Shown piece by piece: positions 850 through 14,757 of a DNA stretch of 14,757 nt. The DNA comes from a bacterium (GTDB lineage: Bacteria > JALSQH01), in the NCBI GenBank assembly GCA_026985515.1, contig JALSQH010000207.1:1-14757 (forward strand), in the 5' to 3' direction. The position numbers and the translations under genes are program-made. The notes beneath the pieces were generated by a model. That model did not search any database. It was not told the DNA's origin and saw only the letters and a program-made list of their open reading frames with translations. Position 1 is the first letter of the stretch. Every line of letters begins with the position of its first letter.

Positions 850-2427
850 ATGTTGTTTTACGAAGAAAAGGATGCGAGAGAAACTCTTAAACTGCGAAGT
901 CTCAAAAAGGGGGAATATCATCAGGATTACCCGCTTTACACCGTTGTAAGGGATAATGACAAATGTATAAGATGTCTTGCCTGTGTCAGGCAGTGTTCCT
1001 ACGAAGCCACTTTTTATGATCCGGTAAGGAATGTAATATACAACAAAGATGAAGCCTGTGTGGGATGTCTCAGGTGTGTGGCAATCTGCCCCACTGATGC
1101 AATTACAGTTAAAAGAAATGATACAAAGTACAGAGAAAATGAAAACTGGCGAGAAGAAACGATCAAGGCAATAAAGAAACAGGCAGATTTTGGTGCTGCG
1201 AGGCTGACTGGTCTGGGAAATGATAAAGGTTATAAAATTTATTTTGATCACATGGTCCTTGATGCTTCACAGGTTACCAATCCTTCCATTGACCCTCTCA
1301 GGGAACCAATGGAATTGAGAACCTTTCTGGGGCGAAAGCCTGATTCTGTAAAGGTGGAATTCAGGAATGGGAAATTACATCTTAAGGAAAAGATACCACC
1401 CCAGTTAAAGCTGGAGGTTCCTGTAATTTTTGCTCCCATGTCTTATGGGTCAATAAATTTCAATTTTCAGGCAGCCCTTGCCATTGCAGCAAGGGAAGCT
1501 GGAACATACTTTAATACCGGTGAAGGTGGGCTACATCAGAAATTGAGGGAGTTTGGTTCCAATGCAATAGTCCAGGTTGCTTCAGGAAGGTTTGGGGTTG
1601 ATATTGACTATCTTGAAGCAGCGGCAGCAGTGGAAATAAAGATTGGACAGGGTGCGAAGCCAGGCATAGGTGGACATCTCCCCGGTGAAAAGGTAACGGC
1701 AGACATTTCAAGGACAAGGATGATTCCCGAGGGGTCTGACGCCATTTCTCCTGCGCCGCATCATGATATTTACTCAATTGAGGATCTGAGGCTGTTGATT
1801 TACGCCATCAAAGAAGCTACCAGATACACGAAACCGGTGTCGGTGAAAATTGCGGCGGTTCACAATGTCGCTGCCATTGCCAGTGGAATAGCAAGGGCAG
1901 GAGCGGACATCATTGTGATTGACGGATTCAGAGGAGGAACTGGAGCCGCCCCAACAATTATCAGGGATCATGTGGGTATTCCAATAGAACTTGCCATTGC
2001 TCAGGTGGATCAGAGATTGAGGGATGAAGGCATAAGAAACTGGGTTTCACTGATAGCAGCAGGTGGTATAAGGAGCAGTGCGGATATTGTTAAAATAATC
2101 GCCCTGGGCGCCGATGCGGTTTACATTGGAACTGCTGCCATGGTTGCTGTAGGGTGCACACTCTGTCAACAATGTCACAGAGGGATCTGTGCCTGGGGAA
2201 TCACTACCAACAGGCCAGATCTTGCAAAGAGAATAAATGTTGACATAGCTGCTGAACAGCTCTACAACCTTCTCAGAGGCTGGGCAATTGAGATAAGGGA
2301 GATGCTTGGTCTTATGGGGGTTAACTCCATTGAATCACTGAGGGGTAACAGACTGAAATTGAGGGGTGTGGGTCTTACTCAGGAAGAACTTGATGTTCTT
2401 GGTATAAAACACGCAGGATTACAGTAG
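850..2427 (+). CDS. gltB2: Glutamate synthase, FMN/synthase domain protein with N-terminal 2x[4Fe-4S] ferredoxin domain
   Basis: This is the synthase domain of a split glutamate synthase, where ammonia and 2-oxoglutarate are converted to glutamate on FMN. The N-terminus carries two [4Fe-4S] motifs (Cys39/42/45/49 and Cys70/73/76/80). The FMN barrel follows: PVIFAPMSYGS begins near residue 191, GQGAKPGIGGHLPG lies in the middle, and the glycine-rich DGFRGGTGAAP is at 358-368. The [3Fe-4S] site typical of GltB (C-x5-C-x4-C) is Cys436, Cys442 and Cys447, with an extra Cys439. The 525-residue length fits the short archaeal/Thermotoga-type protein rather than the roughly 1,500-residue bacterial GltB. 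The amidotransferase and GXGXG domains are separate genes downstream. The ATG at 850 is preceded by GGAG at a 7-base spacing. It is the first gene of the operon. Confidence 0.93.
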   Translation: MLFYEEKDARETLKLRSLKKGEYHQDYPLYTVVRDNDKCIRCLACVRQCSYEATFYDPVRNVIYNKDEACVGCLRCVAICPTDAITVKRNDTKYRENENWREETIKAIKKQADFGAARLTGLGNDKGYKIYFDHMVLDASQVTNPSIDPLREPMELRTFLGRKPDSVKVEFRNGKLHLKEKIPPQLKLEVPVIFAPMSYGSINFNFQAALAIAAREAGTYFNTGEGGLHQKLREFGSNAIVQVASGRFGVDIDYLEAAAAVEIKIGQGAKPGIGGHLPGEKVTADISRTRMIPEGSDAISPAPHHDIYSIEDLRLLIYAIKEATRYTKPVSVKIAAVHNVAAIASGIARAGADIIVIDGFRGGTGAAPTIIRDHVGIPIELAIAQVDQRLRDEGIRNWVSLIAAGGIRSSADIVKIIALGADAVYIGTAAMVAVGCTLCQQCHRGICAWGITTNRPDLAKRINVDIAAEQLYNLLRGWAIEIREMLGLMGVNSIESLRGNRLKLRGVGLTQEELDVLGIKHAGLQ

Positions 2428-2435
2428 GTGAGGAA

Positions 2436-3002
2436 ATGAAAGTAGTATTTCCCATTGAAGAGAGATGCATAGATTGTCACCTGTGTGAGGTTGCCTGTAT
2501 TGTTGAACATTCAGAAACGAAAGACCCCATTCTGGCATACATGGTTGAGGGGCTTTCCTTCAATGAGGAGTGGAGTGCCTTTACCCCTGATCCGCATGAG
2601 GCCCTTGAAGCTGGTAAGCCAAAGCCACTGAACAGGACAAGGGTGAGGAATAACGGCGCTGGTGTATCTTTCTCAATGATGTGCAGGCACTGTGAGGAAC
2701 CCAAATGCGTGGAAGCCTGCAAAAATGGAAGTCTCTATATTGCAGAGGATGGGAGAATTCTCCTGAATGAAGATAAATGCGTTGGTTGCTGGATGTGCAT
2801 TATGGCATGTCCGTGGGGGGCAATTTCCCGAAATCCCACAAGGGGAAATGTGAAGGGTCTTGAGCGAACTGCTATTTCACATAAGTGTGATCTCTGTCCC
2901 GACAGAGAAATTCCTGCGTGTGTTATGGCATGTCCCACTGAAGCTCTGATCTACATTGAGAAAGAGGAGATCAAAAATTATGAGGTACGTTTTAGTAGGT
3001 AA
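2436..3002 (+). CDS. Four-cluster [4Fe-4S] ferredoxin subunit (HycB/CooF-like), electron carrier for glutamate synthase
   Basis: This 188-residue protein has sixteen cysteines in four cluster motifs: Cys11/14/17/21, Cys83/86/91/95, Cys115/118/121/125 and Cys151/154/162/166. The arrangement is that of the electron-transfer subunits of the HycB/CooF/DMSO-reductase-B family, which wire an oxidoreductase to a redox partner. There is no signal peptide, so it should be cytoplasmic. It starts 8 bases after gltB2, with GGTGAGG just upstream of the ATG, and its 3' end overlaps the FAD oxidoreductase gene by 23 bases. I infer that it carries electrons between the FAD/NAD(H) protein and the FMN domain. 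An alternative donor such as ferredoxin or a hydrogenase cannot be excluded. Confidence 0.88.
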   Translation: MKVVFPIEERCIDCHLCEVACIVEHSETKDPILAYMVEGLSFNEEWSAFTPDPHEALEAGKPKPLNRTRVRNNGAGVSFSMMCRHCEEPKCVEACKNGSLYIAEDGRILLNEDKCVGCWMCIMACPWGAISRNPTRGNVKGLERTAISHKCDLCPDREIPACVMACPTEALIYIEKEEIKNYEVRFSR

Positions 3003-4242
3003 CTCCATAGCTGCCACTGGAGCCATTGAAGCGATCAGAAGGGTGGATAAGGACAACGAGATTGTTGTGATCTCAGATGAACCTCATTTCGTATATACAA
3101 GGGCTCTGATTCATGAGTATCTTGCCAGTATGGTAACTGAAGATATGATGTATTACAGACCCCGCGATTTCTATGAGAAAAATGGCGTGACTCCTCTGCT
3201 GGGTAGAAAAGCTGTTTCTGTTGATTTTGAGAAAAAAGAGGTGAAACTTGAAGATGGAGAGGAGATAAAATATGATAAGTTACTTCTTGCCACGGGAGGA
3301 AAGCCATTCATCCCTCCGGGAATAGAAGATCTGGCAAAGATCAGGTATTTCACATTTACAAAATGGAAAGATGCTGATGAATTGAGGGAAGCTGTAGCAG
3401 ATGCTGAAAATATAGTGGTCCTTGGTGCAGGTTTGATAGGCCTTCAATGTGTTGATGGTCTCCTTCATATGGGAAAAAGGGCCACGGTTGTTGAGCTTGC
3501 TGATACAATTCTCCCTATGGCTCTTGACAGAAAAGCTTCAGATATCATAAAAGACGCTCTCGAAAAGGAGGGAGTTAAATTTTATCTGAACAATACGATC
3601 ACAAAAGTTTACCACAGGAATGGTGAGTTAAAAGAGGTTCAGCTTAAAAGTGGTGAGAGGTTGCCTGCTGATATTCTTGTCATTGCAGTGGGTGTCAGGC
3701 CAAGGACCGATATAGTAATGGATACAAAAATAGAAATTGACAGAGGAATTGTTGTAAATGAGTTGATGGAAACCAATATACCGGATGTTTATGCAGCTGG
3801 AGATGTTGCGCAGGGAAAGGAGATTATAACTGGCATAAAAATGGTGATACCCATAATTCCAGTTGCTTATGCTCATGGTAAATATGCCGGTTTTAATATG
3901 GCAGGTGAAGAGAGAGTTTTCCCCGGTGCCCTTTCAATGAACTCCCTTCAATTTGCCAATATACCGGTAATTTCTTACGGTTTCATAAAGCCTCCTGAGG
4001 GTTCTGAAGAGCTTACCTATTTTGATCCTGACAGGCTGATTTACAAAAGAATTCTGATTCAGAATGACAGAATTGTGGGTGCTCTTTTCCTCAGGGCTGT
4101 GGATAGAGTTGGAATATTTCGTTATCTCATTGAGAGGAAACTTGATGTAACAAGTTTTAAGGAGCATCTACTGAAGGATGATTTTGACTATCCATATCTT
4201 CCCAAAAAATACAGACTGGAGATGTGGAGAGAGCCATATTGA
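2980..4242 (+). CDS. FAD-dependent pyridine nucleotide oxidoreductase (NADH oxidase/NirB-N-terminal type), glutamate synthase electron input
   Basis: This 420-residue flavoprotein has the two-dinucleotide-binding-domain fold of the pyridine nucleotide-disulfide oxidoreductase superfamily. The N-terminal FAD site is the variant VLVGNSIAATGA (residues 4-15) rather than strict GxGxxG. LLLATGGKP is at 101-109, the NAD(P) motif VVLGAGLIG is at 146-154, and the second FAD motif DVYAAGDVA is at 269-277. Glu172 at the end of the second strand of the NAD domain suggests NADH rather than NADPH. No redox-active CxxxxC pair is seen, so it is not a disulfide reductase. A TTG start at 2956 is possible, but the ATG at 2980 has GAGGAG 10 bases upstream and leads directly into the first beta strand. 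It presumably replaces GltD. Confidence 0.88.
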   Translation: MRYVLVGNSIAATGAIEAIRRVDKDNEIVVISDEPHFVYTRALIHEYLASMVTEDMMYYRPRDFYEKNGVTPLLGRKAVSVDFEKKEVKLEDGEEIKYDKLLLATGGKPFIPPGIEDLAKIRYFTFTKWKDADELREAVADAENIVVLGAGLIGLQCVDGLLHMGKRATVVELADTILPMALDRKASDIIKDALEKEGVKFYLNNTITKVYHRNGELKEVQLKSGERLPADILVIAVGVRPRTDIVMDTKIEIDRGIVVNELMETNIPDVYAAGDVAQGKEIITGIKMVIPIIPVAYAHGKYAGFNMAGEERVFPGALSMNSLQFANIPVISYGFIKPPEGSEELTYFDPDRLIYKRILIQNDRIVGALFLRAVDRVGIFRYLIERKLDVTSFKEHLLKDDFDYPYLPKKYRLEMWREPY

Positions 4243-4252
4243 GGGAGCAGAG

Positions 4253-5353
4253 ATGAGCTGGAACTATGTAAAGGATATATCAAATTGTGGATTATTTGGT
4301 GTGATAAGCAAAAAGAAGAGGCTGATAAATGGAGAGATAGCCAGGAGAGCAATTGCGAATATGCATGACAGGGGCAACGGACTTGGTGGTGGATTTGCTG
4401 CATATGGAATTTACCCTGATTACAAAGACTTCTATGCTTTTCATATCATGTATGATTCCCTCAAAGCGATAGATGAAACTGAGGAATTCCTGAGGGATAA
4501 TCTGGAAGTGGTGCATGAGGAGGATATTCCGACGAGGGAAACAGACAAGATAAAATGGAGTCCCTATTTGAAAAGGTACTTTGTTCTTCCTGCCAATAAC
4601 CCCAAGGAAAGGGAACTTGAGCTTTTAAGAGGAATGGATGATGATTATATTGTCAGGGTTGTGATGATAATTAATGATAGAATTGAGGGAGCCTATGTCT
4701 TTTCAAGCGGGAAAAATATGGGTGCATTCAAGGGGGTTGGATTCCCTGAGGATCTTGCCGAATTCTACAGACTTGACGAGTATGATGGGTATATCTGGAT
4801 AGCCCACAACAGATTTCCAACAAACACCCCCGGATGGTGGGGTGGTGCCCATCCCTTTACCCTTCTTGACTGGGCAATTGTACATAATGGTGAGATCTCT
4901 TCATACGGAATAAATAGAAGATACCTTGAAATGTTTGGTTACAAATTAACCCTTCATACTGATACGGAGGTGGTGGCTTACCTGATGGACCTCATTGTGA
5001 GGAAACATGGGCTTCCCTTTGAGATAGCGGCAAAGATTTTCGCACCTCCCTTCTGGAAGGATATAGATGAAATGGATGAGGATGAGAGGGAAGCTTACAC
5101 TGCATTGCGGGCTGTTTATGGGTCAGCTGTTCTCAATGGTCCTTTTGCAATACTCTTTGCCTTTCATAATGGACTCATGGGCTTGAACGACAGGGTGAAG
5201 TTGAGACCTCTGGTTGTGGGAGAGAAGGATGATCTGGTATACATGTCAAGTGAGGAAGCAGGCATAAGGGAGGTTGAGCCAGATCTTGACAGAGTTTACG
5301 CCCCACCTGCCGGTGAACCTGTACTGGTGTTTACAGAGGAGGAGAAGGATTAA
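4253..5353 (+). CDS. gltB1: Glutamate synthase, class II glutamine amidotransferase domain protein
   Basis: This protein hydrolyses glutamine to glutamate and ammonia for the synthase domain. The Ntn-hydrolase signature NCGLFGVIS places the likely nucleophile at Cys12. Other conserved elements are HNRFPTNTPGWWGGAHPF (185-202), HNGEISSYG (211-219) and HTDTEVVAYL (235-244), with an NDRVKLRPL segment near 312-320. These are the glutamine-binding and oxyanion elements of the family. Because class II enzymes need an N-terminal cysteine, the 11 residues before Cys12 would have to be removed, as happens to the GltB propeptide. The chosen ATG at 4253 has GGGAG 5 bases upstream. The frame is open 75 bases further upstream, but that part lies inside the preceding gene. 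The 366-residue length fits a stand-alone domain. The stop codon overlaps the next start by one base. Confidence 0.9.
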   Translation: MSWNYVKDISNCGLFGVISKKKRLINGEIARRAIANMHDRGNGLGGGFAAYGIYPDYKDFYAFHIMYDSLKAIDETEEFLRDNLEVVHEEDIPTRETDKIKWSPYLKRYFVLPANNPKERELELLRGMDDDYIVRVVMIINDRIEGAYVFSSGKNMGAFKGVGFPEDLAEFYRLDEYDGYIWIAHNRFPTNTPGWWGGAHPFTLLDWAIVHNGEISSYGINRRYLEMFGYKLTLHTDTEVVAYLMDLIVRKHGLPFEIAAKIFAPPFWKDIDEMDEDEREAYTALRAVYGSAVLNGPFAILFAFHNGLMGLNDRVKLRPLVVGEKDDLVYMSSEEAGIREVEPDLDRVYAPPAGEPVLVFTEEEKD

Positions 5354-6090
5354 TGGTGGTAATAGATGCAAAGGGTGTTTACTACAGGGATCTGAATGAA
5401 AGAGTGAGAAGGGAAATAGAAAAGGGTGAAAAATATATAAAACTTGTAAATGTTAATGGTCAGAGATACATAGGTGCCGGGCTGAAAAACAAAGATGTTT
5501 ATATTGAGGTGGAAGGTACCGCAGGGGAAGATCTTGGTGTCTTCATGGATGGACCAACAATAAGAATTCATGGAAACGCCCAGGATGGTGTCGGCAACAC
5601 CATGAATTCTGGTAAGATCATTATTGAAGGTATGGCTGGAGATGTTCTTGGTTATGGTATGAGAGGTGGCAGGGTGTACATACGGGACAATGTTGGTTAC
5701 AGGGTGGGAATCCATATGAAGGGTTATTTCAACAAGATTCCCATAATAGTAATTGGCGGGAAGGCGGGTGATTTTTTTGGTGAATATATGGCTGGTGGAA
5801 GGATGATTCTTCTTGGTATAACCGGAGGGAACATACCCATCACGGGAGATTATGTTGGAACAGGAATGCATGGAGGTGCAATTTTTATCAGAGGGCACGT
5901 CCCGAAGAACAGGCTTGGTAAAGAAGTTGGAATAAGGGAACCTGATGAAGATGATATGAGGTTTCTCAGGGAAGTTCTTGAAGATTTTGCTAAGGAGCTT
6001 AATTTTGATTTTGAGGAGATAATGTCTGAGCCCTTCATAAAGTTGTTGCCTGTCTCCAAGAGGCCCTACGGCAGACATTATGTTTATTAG
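5353..6090 (+). CDS. gltB3: Glutamate synthase, GXGXG beta-helix domain protein
   Basis: This 245-residue protein corresponds to the C-terminal GXGXG domain of bacterial GltB, a right-handed beta-helix that packs against the synthase and amidotransferase domains and is structural rather than catalytic. The periodic glycine pattern is clear: GTAGEDLGVFMDG (55-67), GNAQDGVGNTMNSG (74-87), GMAGDVLGYGMRGG (93-106), GGKAGDFFGEYMAGG (135-149) and DYVGTGMHGG (166-175). The start is fused to the end of gltB1 (TAATG), which implies translational coupling. The C-terminal tail (about 190-245) is acidic and helical, and I do not recognise it. It is the last recognised gene of the glutamate synthase set. 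Confidence 0.9.
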   Translation: MVVIDAKGVYYRDLNERVRREIEKGEKYIKLVNVNGQRYIGAGLKNKDVYIEVEGTAGEDLGVFMDGPTIRIHGNAQDGVGNTMNSGKIIIEGMAGDVLGYGMRGGRVYIRDNVGYRVGIHMKGYFNKIPIIVIGGKAGDFFGEYMAGGRMILLGITGGNIPITGDYVGTGMHGGAIFIRGHVPKNRLGKEVGIREPDEDDMRFLREVLEDFAKELNFDFEEIMSEPFIKLLPVSKRPYGRHYVY

Positions 6091-6781
6091 AAAACTTCTT
6101 TTCTCCATTCTTCTGATTTTTCTACTTTCAGGATGTATCCAGTATGAGGAAACGATTCACATTTTCCCATCTGGATGGGTCAGAGTGTCCATTGATCTGC
6201 GTGCTCCCGCCACCATTTTTCGCCAGATGGTGGCCAGGGGAGGAAGCAAGTTTTTTAAACTATTGATGCAACCAAGACACAGGGTGATAAATCAACTTCC
6301 CTCTTCTGTTCAGCTGATGGAGTGGTATCTTGATAAAAGCACCGCTAACTGGCACTTTCATACCAATTTCTATGTAAAATCTTCCTCAGCGGGCCAGTTA
6401 TCCGGGCTCTTTGAAGGTCAGAAAATTAACATATCCATTTCTAATGGAAATGTCAATTTCAGACGCTTCATAGATATGACGAGGTTTGGGAGAATTATCG
6501 CCAATTTGAAACAATCTCCCCTGATTAAAAGGGAACTGCTGTTAGCCTCCCACTTCCGCTTCAGGATTGTGGTGCCAACCAGGATTATTTCTACCAATGC
6601 CACCGTCACCACTGAAGACACCGCTGAATGGGATTTTAAACTCCTTGATCTGGTTGCTCAGCCACAGGTTATGAAGATAACCTTTCCTCTCCCGCCTTTT
6701 TACTACTATCCCCTTTTCTGGCTCCTTTATGGACTGGTAAGCATGGTTTTCTACTTATGGCTGTTGTTTAAGAAGCTTTGA
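6080..6781 (+). CDS. Predicted lipoprotein with C-terminal membrane segment (LppM/DUF3153-like, tentative)
   Basis: The 233-residue product begins with a classic lipoprotein signal: a short basic start (MFIRK), a hydrophobic core and the lipobox LSGC, with Cys19 as the lipidated residue. The mature part has a beta-rich pattern, including EETIHIFPSGWVRVSIDL and a segment near 172-190 of the type 'threonine-arginine ... TNATV ... EWDF'. This resembles the LppM/DUF3153 family by eye, but I cannot confirm it without a profile search. The last 30 residues are strongly hydrophobic and end in KKL, suggesting a single transmembrane helix. Its ATG overlaps the end of gltB3 by 11 bases with only a distant GAGG at about 6062, so translation is probably coupled. 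A role in glutamate synthesis is not implied. Confidence 0.7.
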   Translation: MFIRKLLFSILLIFLLSGCIQYEETIHIFPSGWVRVSIDLRAPATIFRQMVARGGSKFFKLLMQPRHRVINQLPSSVQLMEWYLDKSTANWHFHTNFYVKSSSAGQLSGLFEGQKINISISNGNVNFRRFIDMTRFGRIIANLKQSPLIKRELLLASHFRFRIVVPTRIISTNATVTTEDTAEWDFKLLDLVAQPQVMKITFPLPPFYYYPLFWLLYGLVSMVFYLWLLFKKL

Positions 6782-7017: not shown

Positions 7018-7041
7018 TCATTCATTCAGTCAGTCATTCAT
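7018..7041 (+). repeat. Tetranucleotide repeat (TCAT)2(TCAG)2(TCAT)2 in the signal-peptide coding region
   Basis: Six consecutive 4-base units of the form TCAK follow one another without interruption, and a related TGAT comes next. They sit 33 bases after the ATG at 6985 and exactly where the reading frame breaks. Because each unit is 4 bases, gain of one unit or loss of two would join the start to the downstream frame. This is the architecture of a slipped-strand contingency locus, although the tract is short and two-motif. Confidence 0.8.
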
Positions 7042-9107
7042 TGATAATTTTATTGTTCTTGATTGTGGGATCAACCTCAGGGAATTCAGCCACATTTGAG
7101 TTTTTAAATCAGGTAAGGGGTATTGATACAGGAAATGGTCTTGTTGGATGTGAAGCTGTTTATATAAGGGGAAAGGATCTGGTTGGAGGTTACAGTTTTG
7201 CAGATGCAGTTACCAATCCATGGGGTAAAATTTCATCAGAAGGAAGTGTGGTTATACTTGGTAAAAATAGGATAGAAGGTGATATTTATCTCCCCAATCT
7301 TTCAGACTATTGGGATTTTGGCAGAAATAAAGTTGAAGGCGAGTTAAAGAGTGTAGATATAGTTTCCAGTTGCGATGCTATTGAGAAAGTTGAGGATTGG
7401 ATTTATAAGGCGTCACTTGATAATAATAACGATGAATGGAACTTTGGAGAGGATCTTTTTGGATATTTAGAATATGAAAAAGGTCATCACCATAAAAAGG
7501 GAAGGTTAAGGTGGGTTAATGAGTATAGTATTTCTTCACCTCAGGAAGGGATTTTTTATTTTGATCATTTGAGGATGGGAGGAAAGGTAAATGTCAAGGT
7601 AGGTTCATTGTTAACATTGTTTGTTAAAGGGGATTTTGAGGTTCTGGGTAAGAGTAAGGTGAATTATGGAGGAGATCCGGCGAGTTTAATAGTTGTAGTT
7701 GGGGGTGATGTAAGGATATGTGGAAAAAGTAGTTTTTCAGGGACGATTATCAGCAAAGGGGATGTTAGGATATGTGGTAGGAGCCGGTTCAAAGGGAGTA
7801 TTATAAGTAAGAGACTTTTCATTGATGGCCATAATGAGGCATTGTGGGATGTGAATGAGGGGGTGAATTATTTCATTTATTACAATGAGTGGGGGACTGG
7901 AGAGACAATAAGGTATTATTTTGAGTCAGGGAAGTATATGGTGAAGGTTACAGAGGGGAGTTTAGCGAAGGTAGAAGGAAAGTTGTATGAATTGGGGATT
8001 ACATATGATGTAGATGATGTGGGATATTTCCTATTTTTTAAATCTAATATGCCTTTAAGTGAACTTAAGCAGGAACTTTTACCAGTAGGAGCAAGTTTTG
8101 TAGGTCAGTTTTTTACTAAAAGTAATGATGATAGAGGATGGATTCCTAATCCGGTTTTGTTAGTAAGATATAAAGACGATGTTACCAAGCAGGAGGTTAT
8201 AGATTTTAATAAGAGAATAGGGGTTAAGAGTGTTGAGGTTCTATCCTGGGACACCCTTATCTTTGCATTGACAGTAACTGCTGATAATGTGTATGAGTTA
8301 ATGGAAAAAAGAAAAGAATATGAAGAATCGGATCTTGTGGAGTGGGTGGATATAGATGAAGCAGGAATTGTAGAAGGAAAGTATCATGAGAAAGTTTTAA
8401 ATAAGGAACTCGATGATAATACTTATTCAGAATATAATTATATGGGCTTAACTGGTTTCTTTACGAGAAATACTCCTGATGTTCTTGATTTTTTAGTGGG
8501 CTACAAAAATGAATCCATTGAATTCCCCATATATGGAGCCAATCGATACAATAGGCCTGTGAGAATTGGGGTAATTGGATATGGAGTTTATGATGCTCAT
8601 GAGGATCTTAGACACTCTCTGTGCGGTTTTGGTAAGACATTTGTTGAAGGTGATAAAAATGGGTACATTCCTAATTATATTAGAAATCCCAGTGAAAACG
8701 ACAATAACCAGCATGAAATCTGGATTACTGGTTTGATAGCTGCTGATTCATTCAATCATAAGGGCGTATGGGGTCTGACATTTGGTAGTAGCTGTGTCGT
8801 GCCAATTCAAGATGTTTATCGTAGAAAAACTCATTGGTGGGAAGAAGGTGAATATATAAATGTAAGTAAAGTTTCCTGGACGGTGAAAGGCATAAACTAT
8901 GCTAAGGATGTAGTTGATATTCTTAATATATCCTGGAAATATGAGGAGAGCAATGCATTGAGAGACGCAATATTGGATGCAGCCAAGAAGATTTTGATTG
9001 TTGCCAGTGCTGGTAATGAAGATAAGAATAGATGTAATTTCCCCGCCAACTTGGCTGGAAGAAGCAACGGCATATTGTGTGTTGGAGCTGTGTCTGGAGG
9101 AAATTAA
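7041..9107 (+). CDS. Subtilisin-like protein, N-terminal fragment: DUF7305-like beta-helix, propeptide and first part of a degenerate S8 domain
   Basis: In this 688-residue frame (weak TTG start with no ribosome binding site), residues 1-16 are the hydrophobic half of a signal peptide. Residues about 170-270 have short G-rich beta-helix turns (LFVKGDFEVLG, VVVGGDVRICGKSSFSGTI, GDVRICGRSRFKGSI), similar to the DUF7305 domain of pilus-associated and surface proteins. Residues about 370-440 (NPVLLVRYKDDVTKQEV ... EWVDIDE) look like a fervidolysin-type propeptide. The S8 domain starts near 505. The expected VIDTG is VIGYG, so the catalytic Asp is Gly513. The His motif is DNNQHEIWITG with His558 in place, where HGTHVAG is usual. 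The oxyanion Asn is Asn659 in SAGNED. The frame stops two residues after GAVSG, inside the domain. Confidence 0.8.
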   Translation: MIILLFLIVGSTSGNSATFEFLNQVRGIDTGNGLVGCEAVYIRGKDLVGGYSFADAVTNPWGKISSEGSVVILGKNRIEGDIYLPNLSDYWDFGRNKVEGELKSVDIVSSCDAIEKVEDWIYKASLDNNNDEWNFGEDLFGYLEYEKGHHHKKGRLRWVNEYSISSPQEGIFYFDHLRMGGKVNVKVGSLLTLFVKGDFEVLGKSKVNYGGDPASLIVVVGGDVRICGKSSFSGTIISKGDVRICGRSRFKGSIISKRLFIDGHNEALWDVNEGVNYFIYYNEWGTGETIRYYFESGKYMVKVTEGSLAKVEGKLYELGITYDVDDVGYFLFFKSNMPLSELKQELLPVGASFVGQFFTKSNDDRGWIPNPVLLVRYKDDVTKQEVIDFNKRIGVKSVEVLSWDTLIFALTVTADNVYELMEKRKEYEESDLVEWVDIDEAGIVEGKYHEKVLNKELDDNTYSEYNYMGLTGFFTRNTPDVLDFLVGYKNESIEFPIYGANRYNRPVRIGVIGYGVYDAHEDLRHSLCGFGKTFVEGDKNGYIPNYIRNPSENDNNQHEIWITGLIAADSFNHKGVWGLTFGSSCVVPIQDVYRRKTHWWEEGEYINVSKVSWTVKGINYAKDVVDILNISWKYEESNALRDAILDAAKKILIVASAGNEDKNRCNFPANLAGRSNGILCVGAVSGGN

Positions 9108-10350
9108 ATATCGTGATGGTGCGAGTAATTATGGCAAATACTTAAGTTTAGTTGCTCCTGATGGGATAGTAGTACCCACATATTTGGTAGACAATACAGG
9201 GAATGCAAGCATATATAAATATTTGATGTTTTGGGGAACCTCTTGTGCTGCTCCATATGTAGCTTCTGTTGCAGCAATTTTGAAATTTTTCGATCCTCAA
9301 TTGACTCCAGAAATATTAAAAGAACTTTTAATAAAAACTGCTTCAAATGAGAAAATTAAGAATTATAGCAAATGGGAATATGGTGCAGGTGTTGTTGATA
9401 TAGGAAAGGCATTCAAAGTACTTTTGTTTCAAGAAGAAGACTATTCTTTATATCCTAATGTGATTCTAAGCTTCTCATCTTTTAATTTAAATTTTAACAA
9501 AGCAGGTTATGATTATTCCGAAATGGATGTTCCAAAAGGTAAAATTGGAATAAAGACAGGCTTCTTATCTAATTTCAGAAAGGAAAATTATGACTTAACT
9601 TTACCTGCAGAAGTGTATGTAATTTTAGGTAAAAATAGTACATCCTATAATTGGTTTAAATTTCATATCGGAAGTAATATGCCGAAAAGTGAGAGTGACA
9701 TATTTTCTAAGGTGCATATGGTTTTACCAGTGGATGCTTCTGCACGATTTTTATTCCTTTACATAGCTAATTTGGGAGAGCCGGTAGGATTTGAAGATGA
9801 AGGGAGGATTGTTATTTTAGGGAGTTCCTTTTCAGATTCAATAGATACCCATTTTAAGGTTTTACCAAAAAATGCTAATACTCCTCCCAACCAGGGGTGT
9901 TCCATAGAATATAATTTTAGCGAGGCTCCTTTTGGAGAGAACATTATTGATGCTTTTAGAAAGGTGAGAGATTCTTATCTTGCTAAGGTTTCTTATGGAT
10001 TAGAAGCGATAAACTTATACTATGAATGGAGTTCTGAGTTTAATAATATATTAGATAATAATCCAGATTTGAAAGAAGAATTTCATGATATTATTTATGA
10101 GATTTTTGGTATTAATAACTTAACCGTGAAGAATGCGCAAACTCTTGCGAATGAACTCTGGAACTTACGATTGAGCGAGGAGGAGAGGATACGGATACAG
10201 AATTTTGTTAGAATGATAATTCCTTTTTTATCGTCAAAGCCTCGTACTTTTGCCCTGGTGGCCGAAAAAGTTTTTTCGTTACCTGAAACCAATTCTTTAT
10301 CTGTCGGTGAAATTATTGAAGAGATTTTGAGATATTATGAAAAGAGGTAG
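9106..10350 (+). CDS. Subtilisin-like protein, C-terminal fragment: end of S8 domain, beta-rich region and CFI-box-like domain
   Basis: The frame is open from 8998, but similarity to subtilases resumes only at about 9106 (KYRDGASNYGKYLSLVAPDG), so the upstream residues are out-of-frame translation. The catalytic Ser is in GTSCAAPYVAS at 9235-9267, with Ser at 9241-9243. After the S8 domain comes a beta-rich region (about 9440-9880). From the TGT at 9898 there is a segment CSIEYN...FRKVRDSYLAK...INLYYEWSSEF. Spacing and key residues (Cys, RD-x-YL, YY-x-x-S) match the CFI-box C-terminal domain (usual start CFIATAAYGS) found on many exported proteins. No independent start codon with a good ribosome binding site is seen. 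The gene ends inside the next coding frame. Confidence 0.75.
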   Translation, partial: KYRDGASNYGKYLSLVAPDGIVVPTYLVDNTGNASIYKYLMFWGTSCAAPYVASVAAILKFFDPQLTPEILKELLIKTASNEKIKNYSKWEYGAGVVDIGKAFKVLLFQEEDYSLYPNVILSFSSFNLNFNKAGYDYSEMDVPKGKIGIKTGFLSNFRKENYDLTLPAEVYVILGKNSTSYNWFKFHIGSNMPKSESDIFSKVHMVLPVDASARFLFLYIANLGEPVGFEDEGRIVILGSSFSDSIDTHFKVLPKNANTPPNQGCSIEYNFSEAPFGENIIDAFRKVRDSYLAKVSYGLEAINLYYEWSSEFNNILDNNPDLKEEFHDIIYEIFGINNLTVKNAQTLANELWNLRLSEEERIRIQNFVRMIIPFLSSKPRTFALVAEKVFSLPETNSLSVGEIIEEILRYYEKR

Positions 10351-12607: not shown

Positions 12608-14728
12608 ATGGGACATGTCAGGTACATCAGGAAAAGGGATGGCAAGGTGGTTGAATTCAAAATAACAAAAATTGCAGATGCTATTTTCAAGGCGGCCAGC
12701 GCCGTAGGGGGTAATGATTACGGTGAATCAATTAGGATTGCAAGACTTGTAAAAGCGGCTGTGGATGCCATTTATGGAGATGAAAGAATTCCAACTGTTG
12801 AGGAAATTCAGGATCTCGTTGAGAAATTCCTCATTGAAGAGGGTCATGCAAAAACTGCCAAGGCTTACATTCTCTACAGGGAGCAGAGAAGCAGAGTAAG
12901 GGAATTTTCATCTCTCTTTGATGAGGCACTTGATATGATAGATGATTATCTTGAACAGAGAGACTGGCGTGTCAATGAAAACAGTAACATGAGTTATTCG
13001 CTTCAGGGACTGAACAATTATATTTCTTCCGCTATCACTGCCAGGTACTGGCTTAACAGAATCTACCCCGAGGAGGTGAGGGAGGCTCACAATAAGGGAT
13101 TTTTTCACATTCATGATCTTGGTATCTTAAGTGTTTACTGTTGCGGATGGGATCTTGAAGATCTACTTCTCAGAGGACTTGGTGGTGTGGAGGGTAAAGT
13201 TGAGAGTGCTCCCCCGAAACATTTCCGAACTGCTCTGGGACAGATAGTCAACTTTTTTTATACACTTCAGGGGGAGGCTGCGGGAGCTCAGGCATTTTCA
13301 AATTTCGATACACTTCTTGCCCCATTCATCAGGTATGATGGTCTCACCTACAGAGAGGTGAAACAGGCAATGCAGGAATTTATTTTTAACCTGAATGTAC
13401 CTACAAGGGTAGGTTTTCAGACTCCCTTTACAAATCTTACCTTTGATATAATTCCGCCAAAATCTCTCAGGGATGAGCATGTTATCATTGGTGGTGAGAG
13501 AAAGAAGGAGACCTATGGAGAATTTCAGGATGAAATCTACATGATTAACGAAGCGTTTGCCGAAGTTATGCTTGAAGGGGATGCCAGGGGGAGGATTTTC
13601 ACTTTTCCAATACCAACATACAATATAACACCTGACTTCCCATGGGATGAACCGAGACTTAACAAGCTGTGGGAAATGACAGCCAAGTATGGAATTCCCT
13701 ACTTCAGTAATTTTGTAAATAGCGACATGGACCCGGATGATGCAAGAAGCATGTGTTGTCGTTTGAGGCTTGATAACAGAGAAATAAGAAAACAGGCCAG
13801 AAAGCTCTCAGCAAACATATTCAATCCGGTAATGAACAAGACATTTTCAACCTCTGAGAGGAACTCGTCTGAACTTGAGCCACCGGATAAGAGAGGGGGT
13901 GGTCTTTTCGGTGCCAATCCCATGACTGGAAGTATCGGTGTGGTAACGATAAATCTTCCCAGACTGGCATATTTATCTAAAAGCAGGGAAGAATTTTTCA
14001 ATCTCATAGAAAAATATATGGAAATTGCCAGAACGTCGCTGGAGATAAAGAGAAAGATTCTCGATCGCTTTACAGAAATGGGACTTTACCCATATTCGAA
14101 GGTTTACCTCAGATCTATAAAGGAGGCCTTTGGTTCATACTGGGCAAATCATTTTTCCACAATTGGTTTAATAGGGATGCATGAAGCTTCACTCAATCTG
14201 ATAGGTAAGGGAATAGAAACCGAAGAGGGTAGAGAACTGGCCATAGAAACCCTTAATTTTATGAGAAAGGTGCTTGATAGATTCAAGGAGGAGACGGGGC
14301 ATCTCTATAACCTTGAAGCTACCCCTGCCGAAGGGGCAAGTTACAGACTTGCAAGGAAAGACAAAGAAGAGTTTCCAGATATCATTACTTCAGGGGAAGC
14401 AGAGCCTTTTTACACCAATTCCACTCAGCTTCCTGTGGATTATACTGAGGACATTTTTGCGGCTCTTGAGCATCAGGATCAGTTACAGGTTATCTATACC
14501 GGTGGGACGGTTTTCCATGGTTTCCTCGGAGAGAGAGTTGAAAGTATAGAGGCCACGAAGCAACTTGTAAGGAAAATTGCAGAAAATTTTCATCTTCCTT
14601 ACTACACAATAACCCCTACATTCAGTATCTGTCCCGTACATGGTTACATTCCTGGAGAGTATGAGTTCTGTCCCTATCCTCATACAGAGGAAGAGCTTGA
14701 AAAGTATGGGATCATTATTGACGAATAA
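12608..14728 (+). CDS. nrdD: Anaerobic (class III) ribonucleoside-triphosphate reductase lacking the C-terminal glycyl-radical motif
   Basis: NrdD reduces ribonucleoside triphosphates to deoxynucleotides without oxygen, after NrdG generates a glycyl radical. Residues 1-95 form an ATP-cone regulatory domain (RKRDGKVVEFKITKIADAIF ... IEEGHAKTAKAYILYREQR). The ten-stranded barrel follows, with Cys178/179 in SVYCCGWDL and Cys383/384 in SMCCRLRL at the places of the two active-site cysteines. EATPAEGASYRLA is at 570-582. The C-terminal metal site is CPVHGYIPGEYEFCPYPH (675-692), with CPYPH where the second CxxC pair is usual. The protein ends 14 residues later at IIIDE, so the usual RVxGYxxP-type glycyl-radical loop is absent. 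AGGAGGGG lies 4-5 bases before ATG 12608. The missing part may be the next gene, which starts 17 bases after the stop codon. Confidence 0.93.
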   Translation: MGHVRYIRKRDGKVVEFKITKIADAIFKAASAVGGNDYGESIRIARLVKAAVDAIYGDERIPTVEEIQDLVEKFLIEEGHAKTAKAYILYREQRSRVREFSSLFDEALDMIDDYLEQRDWRVNENSNMSYSLQGLNNYISSAITARYWLNRIYPEEVREAHNKGFFHIHDLGILSVYCCGWDLEDLLLRGLGGVEGKVESAPPKHFRTALGQIVNFFYTLQGEAAGAQAFSNFDTLLAPFIRYDGLTYREVKQAMQEFIFNLNVPTRVGFQTPFTNLTFDIIPPKSLRDEHVIIGGERKKETYGEFQDEIYMINEAFAEVMLEGDARGRIFTFPIPTYNITPDFPWDEPRLNKLWEMTAKYGIPYFSNFVNSDMDPDDARSMCCRLRLDNREIRKQARKLSANIFNPVMNKTFSTSERNSSELEPPDKRGGGLFGANPMTGSIGVVTINLPRLAYLSKSREEFFNLIEKYMEIARTSLEIKRKILDRFTEMGLYPYSKVYLRSIKEAFGSYWANHFSTIGLIGMHEASLNLIGKGIETEEGRELAIETLNFMRKVLDRFKEETGHLYNLEATPAEGASYRLARKDKEEFPDIITSGEAEPFYTNSTQLPVDYTEDIFAALEHQDQLQVIYTGGTVFHGFLGERVESIEATKQLVRKIAENFHLPYYTITPTFSICPVHGYIPGEYEFCPYPHTEEELEKYGIIIDE

Positions 14729-14745
14729 AAAAGGAGGTTTGTACC

Positions 14746-14757
14746 ATGAAAAAGAAG
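14746..14757 (+). CDS. Start of a further gene (3' partial, four codons), possible separate NrdD glycyl-radical peptide
   Basis: A strong AGGAGG at 14732-14737 is followed 8 bases later by ATG AAA AAG AAG, and the window then ends. The short gap after nrdD and the absence of a terminator imply co-transcription. Nothing of the product beyond MKKK is visible. By context it could be the missing C-terminal glycyl-radical segment of NrdD or the activase gene nrdG. Both are inferences. Confidence 0.6.

Follow-up and report, generated by a model that had tools for sequence, protein, structure and literature searches.

The textbook class III ribonucleotide reductase carries its glycyl radical in the catalytic chain. 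The NrdD of the present locus resembles described class III NrdDs (PF13597; PRK08270/NF006126; 1h78, 4u3e, 8p23, 9d3x) in its ATP-cone, barrel, finger-loop cysteines and C-terminal zinc site and, in its relatives, in the operon partner NrdG, but differs in that the split form has its radical glycine on a separate peptide and not in the catalytic chain. The nearest precedents for this arrangement are the class II reductase NrdJa/b, which is also split, and the spare part GrcA/YfiD. In NrdJa/NrdJb of Pseudomonas (PMC4520616, PMC5704485), described in 2015 as a unique case of a reductase that is split in a free-living organism (PMC4520616), the C-terminal part of the reductase likewise comes from a separate gene, but that enzyme belongs to class II, its separate part, a cysteine-rich domain, carries no radical, and the distribution is narrow. 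GrcA/YfiD and Y06I of phage T4, spare parts of pyruvate formate-lyase (PFL; PMC8683613), are small autonomous glycyl-radical domains and are also found in phage, as is the peptide described here, which would similarly complete a larger enzyme in trans. Unlike GrcA/YfiD, this peptide is homologous to the C-terminus of NrdD and not to PFL, and we propose that it is an obligate subunit in split hosts instead of a repair part. Genes for nrdD in more than one piece are also known from Aeromonas phage phiAS4 and Lactococcus phage 949 (PMC3653736), but these interruptions are sporadic and belong to single phages, whereas here a conserved break before the glycyl-radical loop recurs in many phyla. Our literature search, which covered only a minority of the subscription journals, found no description of a class III enzyme with its radical on a peptide of its own.

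The window, that is, the whole stretch of DNA analysed (14,757 nt), is the complete contig C207 of an assembly of 268 contigs (97.6% complete). Its 3′ end contains the following features:

12608..14728, plus strand: NrdD, 706 aa (NF006126, 1031 bits, profile positions 3-653 of 684; PF13597, 609 bits, positions 1-534 of 562)
12623..12892, plus strand: ATP-cone domain, residues 6-95 (PF03477, 75.5 bits)
13754..13759, plus strand: finger-loop Cys383-Cys384, motif MCCR, read from the sequence and invariant in alignment A3
14630..14683, plus strand: putative C-terminal zinc site C675, H678, C688, H692 (CPVH...CPYPH), from the sequence and the ligand table of relatives
14684..14725, plus strand: 14-residue acidic tail TEEELEKYGIIIDE in place of the radical loop, read from the sequence, with similar tails in split relatives
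14731..14737, plus strand: Shine-Dalgarno sequence AAGGAGG, 8 nt upstream of an ATG
14746..14757, plus strand: first four codons (MKKK) of an ORF truncated by the contig end, predicted to encode the glycyl-radical peptide from its position and the operon order in relatives

The score of the window NrdD (1031 bits) is well above the NF006126/PRK08270 cut-off of 548 bits. Among the features of class III reductases, the NRDD catalytic domain, the finger-loop cysteines and four candidate zinc ligands are present; Cys383/Cys384 would by homology be the thiyl radical site, and C675, H678, C688 and H692 are predicted to bind zinc. The radical glycine (motif RVxGY) is absent from the chain, the frame of which stops before it. 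The C-terminus (...CPYPHTEEELEKYGIIIDE, then the stop) lies 14 residues past CPYPH, and the fuller end reads ...SICPVHGYIPGEYEFCPYPHTEEELEKYGIIIDE. Both profile matches end early (653/684 and 534/562), and thus the missing part is exactly the glycyl-radical segment. The TAA stop of nrdD is followed by AAAAGGAGGTTTGTACC, then by ATG-AAA-AAG-AAG, and there the contig ends; the ATG at 14746 is 17 nt past the stop. Up to that point the chain is complete, with ATP-cone, barrel, finger-loop cysteines and metal ligands. An earlier note on this DNA had described an otherwise complete NrdD with Cys383/384, a stop 14 residues after the metal site CPYPH, a missing glycyl-radical loop, and a ribosome binding site with a new start codon 17 nt further on, and sequence and profile matches agree with it in all these respects.

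The window very probably encodes the larger of the two chains of a class III reductase in which a radical peptide, encoded next in the operon, docks onto this chain and is activated by NrdG. In such an enzyme, the NrdD chain would carry the ATP-cone, the barrel, the thiyl-radical cysteine and the zinc site, and a separate peptide of ~45-90 residues, next in the operon, would carry the radical glycine and the W/N tail. On docking, this peptide would occupy the position of the covalent C-terminal domain of ordinary NrdDs. NrdG, the radical-SAM activase whose gene usually comes next, would put the radical on the peptide glycine, which would pass it to the finger-loop cysteine.

The search of public genomes with the window protein retrieved 80 loci, the best segments being 58-67% identical. 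In most of them NrdD stops at the same place and is followed by a short ORF with the missing segment. The set used for the tree (89 NrdDs, from the search loci and additional genomes) showed 68 NrdDs, the window's included, in which the radical glycine is missing and 21 fused ones. Since 68/89 end without the radical segment, the truncation in the window is neither chance nor a lone defect. In the related loci without the glycine in NrdD, a separate ORF for the radical peptide lies downstream of nrdD and on its strand, a result which supports the proposal of the earlier note that the radical peptide is made from the next gene; for the window's own genome this peptide is predicted.

These peptides, mostly ~45-90 residues long, share the consensus xEVYSRVVGYxRPVxQWNxGKxEEFxxR with the radical Gly in 67/67. 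Within the 30-residue core starting at EVYSR, the residues R, G, P, N, K, E and R are each found in 67/67 as well. For the 13 peptides of alignment A1, the only Pfam match is to the end of the NRDD profile (PF13597), and the NCBIfam families common to them are NrdD families.

In a few loci the arrangement is more complex. The separate peptide ORF of L010 is interrupted by an insert. In L115 (G014:C26, minus strand, ~C26:7190-8180), an insert splits the peptide gene directly after the radical glycine codon; it contains a LAGLIDADG-like ORF, and a GTTGGGT/GCCCAAC pairing suggests a group I intron, for which no Rfam match was found. Locus L108 has a fused NrdD (4010-6139) and a second radical peptide (6214-6477) with its own zinc-ribbon-like N-terminus, possibly a spare part, and its close relative L105 (6112-6369) is of the split form.

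The survey of 386 genomes, sampled by kinship, showed 85 with a PRK08270-type NrdD above the cut-off. Of these, 44 are fused, 40 (the window's genome included) lack the radical segment and one is truncated, that is, about half of the PRK08270-type NrdDs in the surveyed genomes are split. Genome G399 was considered as a split genome and rejected, since its frame holds a fused radical domain; it was counted as fused, and so was G269 with the same pattern. A separate peptide was found in 39/39 of the other body-only genomes, nearly always on the same contig and usually as the next gene; in G380 and G350 it is on a different contig from nrdD. The window's genome is the sole body-only genome without a peptide; its contig breaks off at codon four of the ORF that follows nrdD.

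The split form was found in Spirochaetota, Desulfuromonadales, Omnitrophota, Halanaerobiales, Patescibacteria, several candidate phyla and small-genome archaea. On the NrdD tree (a quick, unrooted tree of the body minus the C-terminus, from which no direction of change was inferred), at least seven changes between split and fused were counted, of which well-supported branches require at least five; shuffled labels gave a mean of 19 changes. The split state is thus phylogenetically clustered, yet it was gained or reversed several times. A dependence of Halanaerobium and Halothermothrix on split NrdD alone was dropped as a candidate, because their weak PF02867 matches are, by eye, full-length class II-like reductases; a PF02867 match is lacking only in G041, the genome of the closest relative, which may be incomplete.

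The commonest gene order is nrdD-peptide-nrdG, and six neighbouring radical-SAM genes that were tested are NrdG2 by the curated cut-off. The order nrdD-nrdG-peptide occurs in L055, L086, L094 and L097, and in G014 another gene stands between nrdD and the peptide. These cases, together with the peptides of G380 and G350 on other contigs, speak for a reading in which NrdD is truly split but nrdG or an unrelated gene starts at 14746, the radical peptide being further on or elsewhere. We consider this improbable: the peptide is the next gene in most loci, including those with the window's tail type, and the start MKKK fits peptide starts such as MKKD, MKEK and MEKE.

The contig ends four codons into this ORF, so that the peptide of the window's genome is deduced and not read. 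The last 28 bases of the contig showed no other occurrence in this assembly by sequence search. A profile search of the assembly found no radical peptide, and no NrdG above the cut-off was found in it (best 57 bits against a cut-off of 131, by which NrdG of six split-type relatives scores 159-229 bits). Likewise, another complete nrdD, which the earlier note had named as evidence against a split enzyme, was searched for in this assembly and none was found. The absent peptide and NrdG are the genes expected right after the contig end, and their absence therefore fits a split enzyme with both genes probably lying just past it.

The same absences could also indicate a non-functional or decaying NrdD that lost its C-terminus by mutation in a genome using another reductase, an alternative raised in the earlier note. 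The large subunit of a class I/II-type reductase is indeed present as fragments at contig ends (C2, C267), and thus NrdD need not be the only reductase of this genome. Decay is, however, very unlikely, as the NrdD body is intact at 58-67% identity to its relatives, its ending is a widespread conserved form, and the missing genes are those expected beyond the contig end.

The peptide of the relatives is a gene of its own. Its start is in phase 0, 1 or 2 relative to nrdD in 19, 19 and 29 of the 67 loci, respectively, and the gap has a median of 37 nt, with four loci at 722-814 nt where nrdG lies in between. A Shine-Dalgarno match precedes the peptide start in 62/67 relatives. Among 24 Desulfuromonadales-type peptides, the median pN was 0.06 versus a pS of 0.84, with pN below pS in every pair compared, which shows that the peptide is under selection. 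The mixed phases, the gaps, the Shine-Dalgarno matches and the pN/pS values exclude read-through or frameshifting as the general mechanism. The least probable reading, which can nearly be discarded for the window, is that of a normal fused NrdD interrupted by a programmed frameshift, stop read-through or a sequencing error, of which the earlier note had named a frameshift. In L002, L006/L081, L041, L068, L070 and L107, only one stop separates nrdD from a peptide in the same frame, but the 67 loci show mixed phases, gaps to >100 nt and several stops in many in-frame cases, nrdG or other genes can stand between the two, and the NrdD of the window ends in a tail of its own, as other split forms do, before a clean start signal.

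The C-terminal metal site follows the separation of the two chains assumed for the split enzyme. In nearly all fused relatives, a site CPxH...CPxC is located immediately before the radical loop. Split pairs were sorted into three types by the ending of NrdD, and in each the peptide was examined for a Cys at position -5 or -3 relative to EVYSR, position -5 being the place of the last Cys in the fused protein. In type (i), with CPxC on NrdD, such a Cys occurs in 0/17 peptides, and in type (ii), with NrdD ending in CP[YFH]xH[ST] as in the window, in 0/14. On the contrary, in type (iii), the 35 other pairs in which NrdD has no second Cys, it occurs in 35/35 (the lineages are not independent, so that the counts do not amount to a test of significance). 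The ligands on NrdD and peptide are complementary: where NrdD lost the fourth ligand, the peptide supplies a cysteine. Judging from the sequences, one zinc would be held jointly by both chains in type (iii), whereas NrdD would provide the complete set of four ligands (C675, H678, C688, H692) in the type to which the window belongs.

AlphaFold models were obtained for two natural in-frame pairs (L081 and L068) read through the stop, with no fused protein in the alignment. The mean pLDDT was 80 for L081 and 82.5 for L068, with ~50-77 in the peptide part. Residues 106-749 of the L081 model align on residues 85-735 of the Prevotella enzyme 8p2s_B (rmsd 3.0 Å, 555 residues), the alignment extending through the radical domain, and the L068 model aligns to the NrdDs of T. 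maritima and S. thermophilus up to near their ends. The models are consistent with docking of the peptide at the usual place of the radical domain, but they weigh lightly since the chains are tethered and AlphaFold knows the fold. For the window, homology and these tethered models suggest that the peptide would dock in trans beside Cys383/384.

Radical peptides are also carried by phages. The scan of IMG/VR showed 468 contigs coding for the radical segment, and 80 were kept; 71/80 have a short ORF and no NrdD within the fetched flanks of ≤6 kb. Among whole viral records, which may be fragments, 35/38 have the peptide without an NrdD body and 3/38 a body with a separate peptide. Some of the lone peptides on the viral contigs (L146-L225) have an added zinc-ribbon-like N-terminus. 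In four viral records and two host contigs, the genes near the peptide that were tested belong to phage families, that is, a Sak4-like annealing protein, exonuclease VIII, a helicase, terminase, transposase and a DNA transposition protein. Extra copies of the radical peptide were noticed in hosts with split NrdD (L116 and L117 in G036, L118 in G018, L235 in G385), those of G036 and G018 adjoining Mu-like phage genes.

One example is the archaeal virus ANMV-1, described as encoding an oxygen-sensitive ribonucleotide reductase (PMC4372165). The annotated gene (L236, 25525-25959), named "anaerobic ribonucleoside triphosphate reductase" in the record, codes for 144 residues with zinc-ribbon-like cysteines and the radical segment, and no NrdD body is detectable in the 38-kb record. 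The published reductase of ANMV-1 is only the glycyl-radical domain.

By analogy with YfiD/Y06I, the phage peptides are candidate spare parts, and peptide-mediated rescue in trans of an oxygen-cleaved NrdD is plausible. The authors of the YfiD study regarded only two spare-part proteins as validated, with the speculation that further ones may repair other glycyl radical enzymes (PMC8683613); the phage-borne peptides may be candidates for such further proteins. We lean slightly towards the peptide being a replaceable radical cartridge: many hosts would keep the glycyl radical on a separate peptide, and the lone peptide of many phages would activate or reactivate the host reductase, split or oxygen-cleaved, securing dNTPs for phage replication. 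If true, this would give NrdD an equivalent of the spare part that T4 carries for pyruvate formate-lyase.

With a widespread natural split, several questions can be tested directly: the docking and movement of the radical domain in the course of activation, whether it is the free or the bound peptide on which NrdG acts, and whether an oxygen-damaged reductase can be repaired by peptide swap. Annotation is corrected as well: an NrdD consisting of the body alone is no broken gene, a short "NrdD" protein is no fragment, and the radical domain by itself, as in the virus ANMV-1, does not make a ribonucleotide reductase.

Two other regions of the window were read by eye. Glutamate synthase is encoded at 850-6090 as separate genes (FMN-binding domain, ferredoxin, FAD oxidoreductase, glutamine amidotransferase and GXGXG domain). 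A subtilisin-like protease at 7041-10350 is spread over two overlapping ORFs, the second of which holds the catalytic serine motif GTSCAAP; this looks like a frameshift near 9000-9107.
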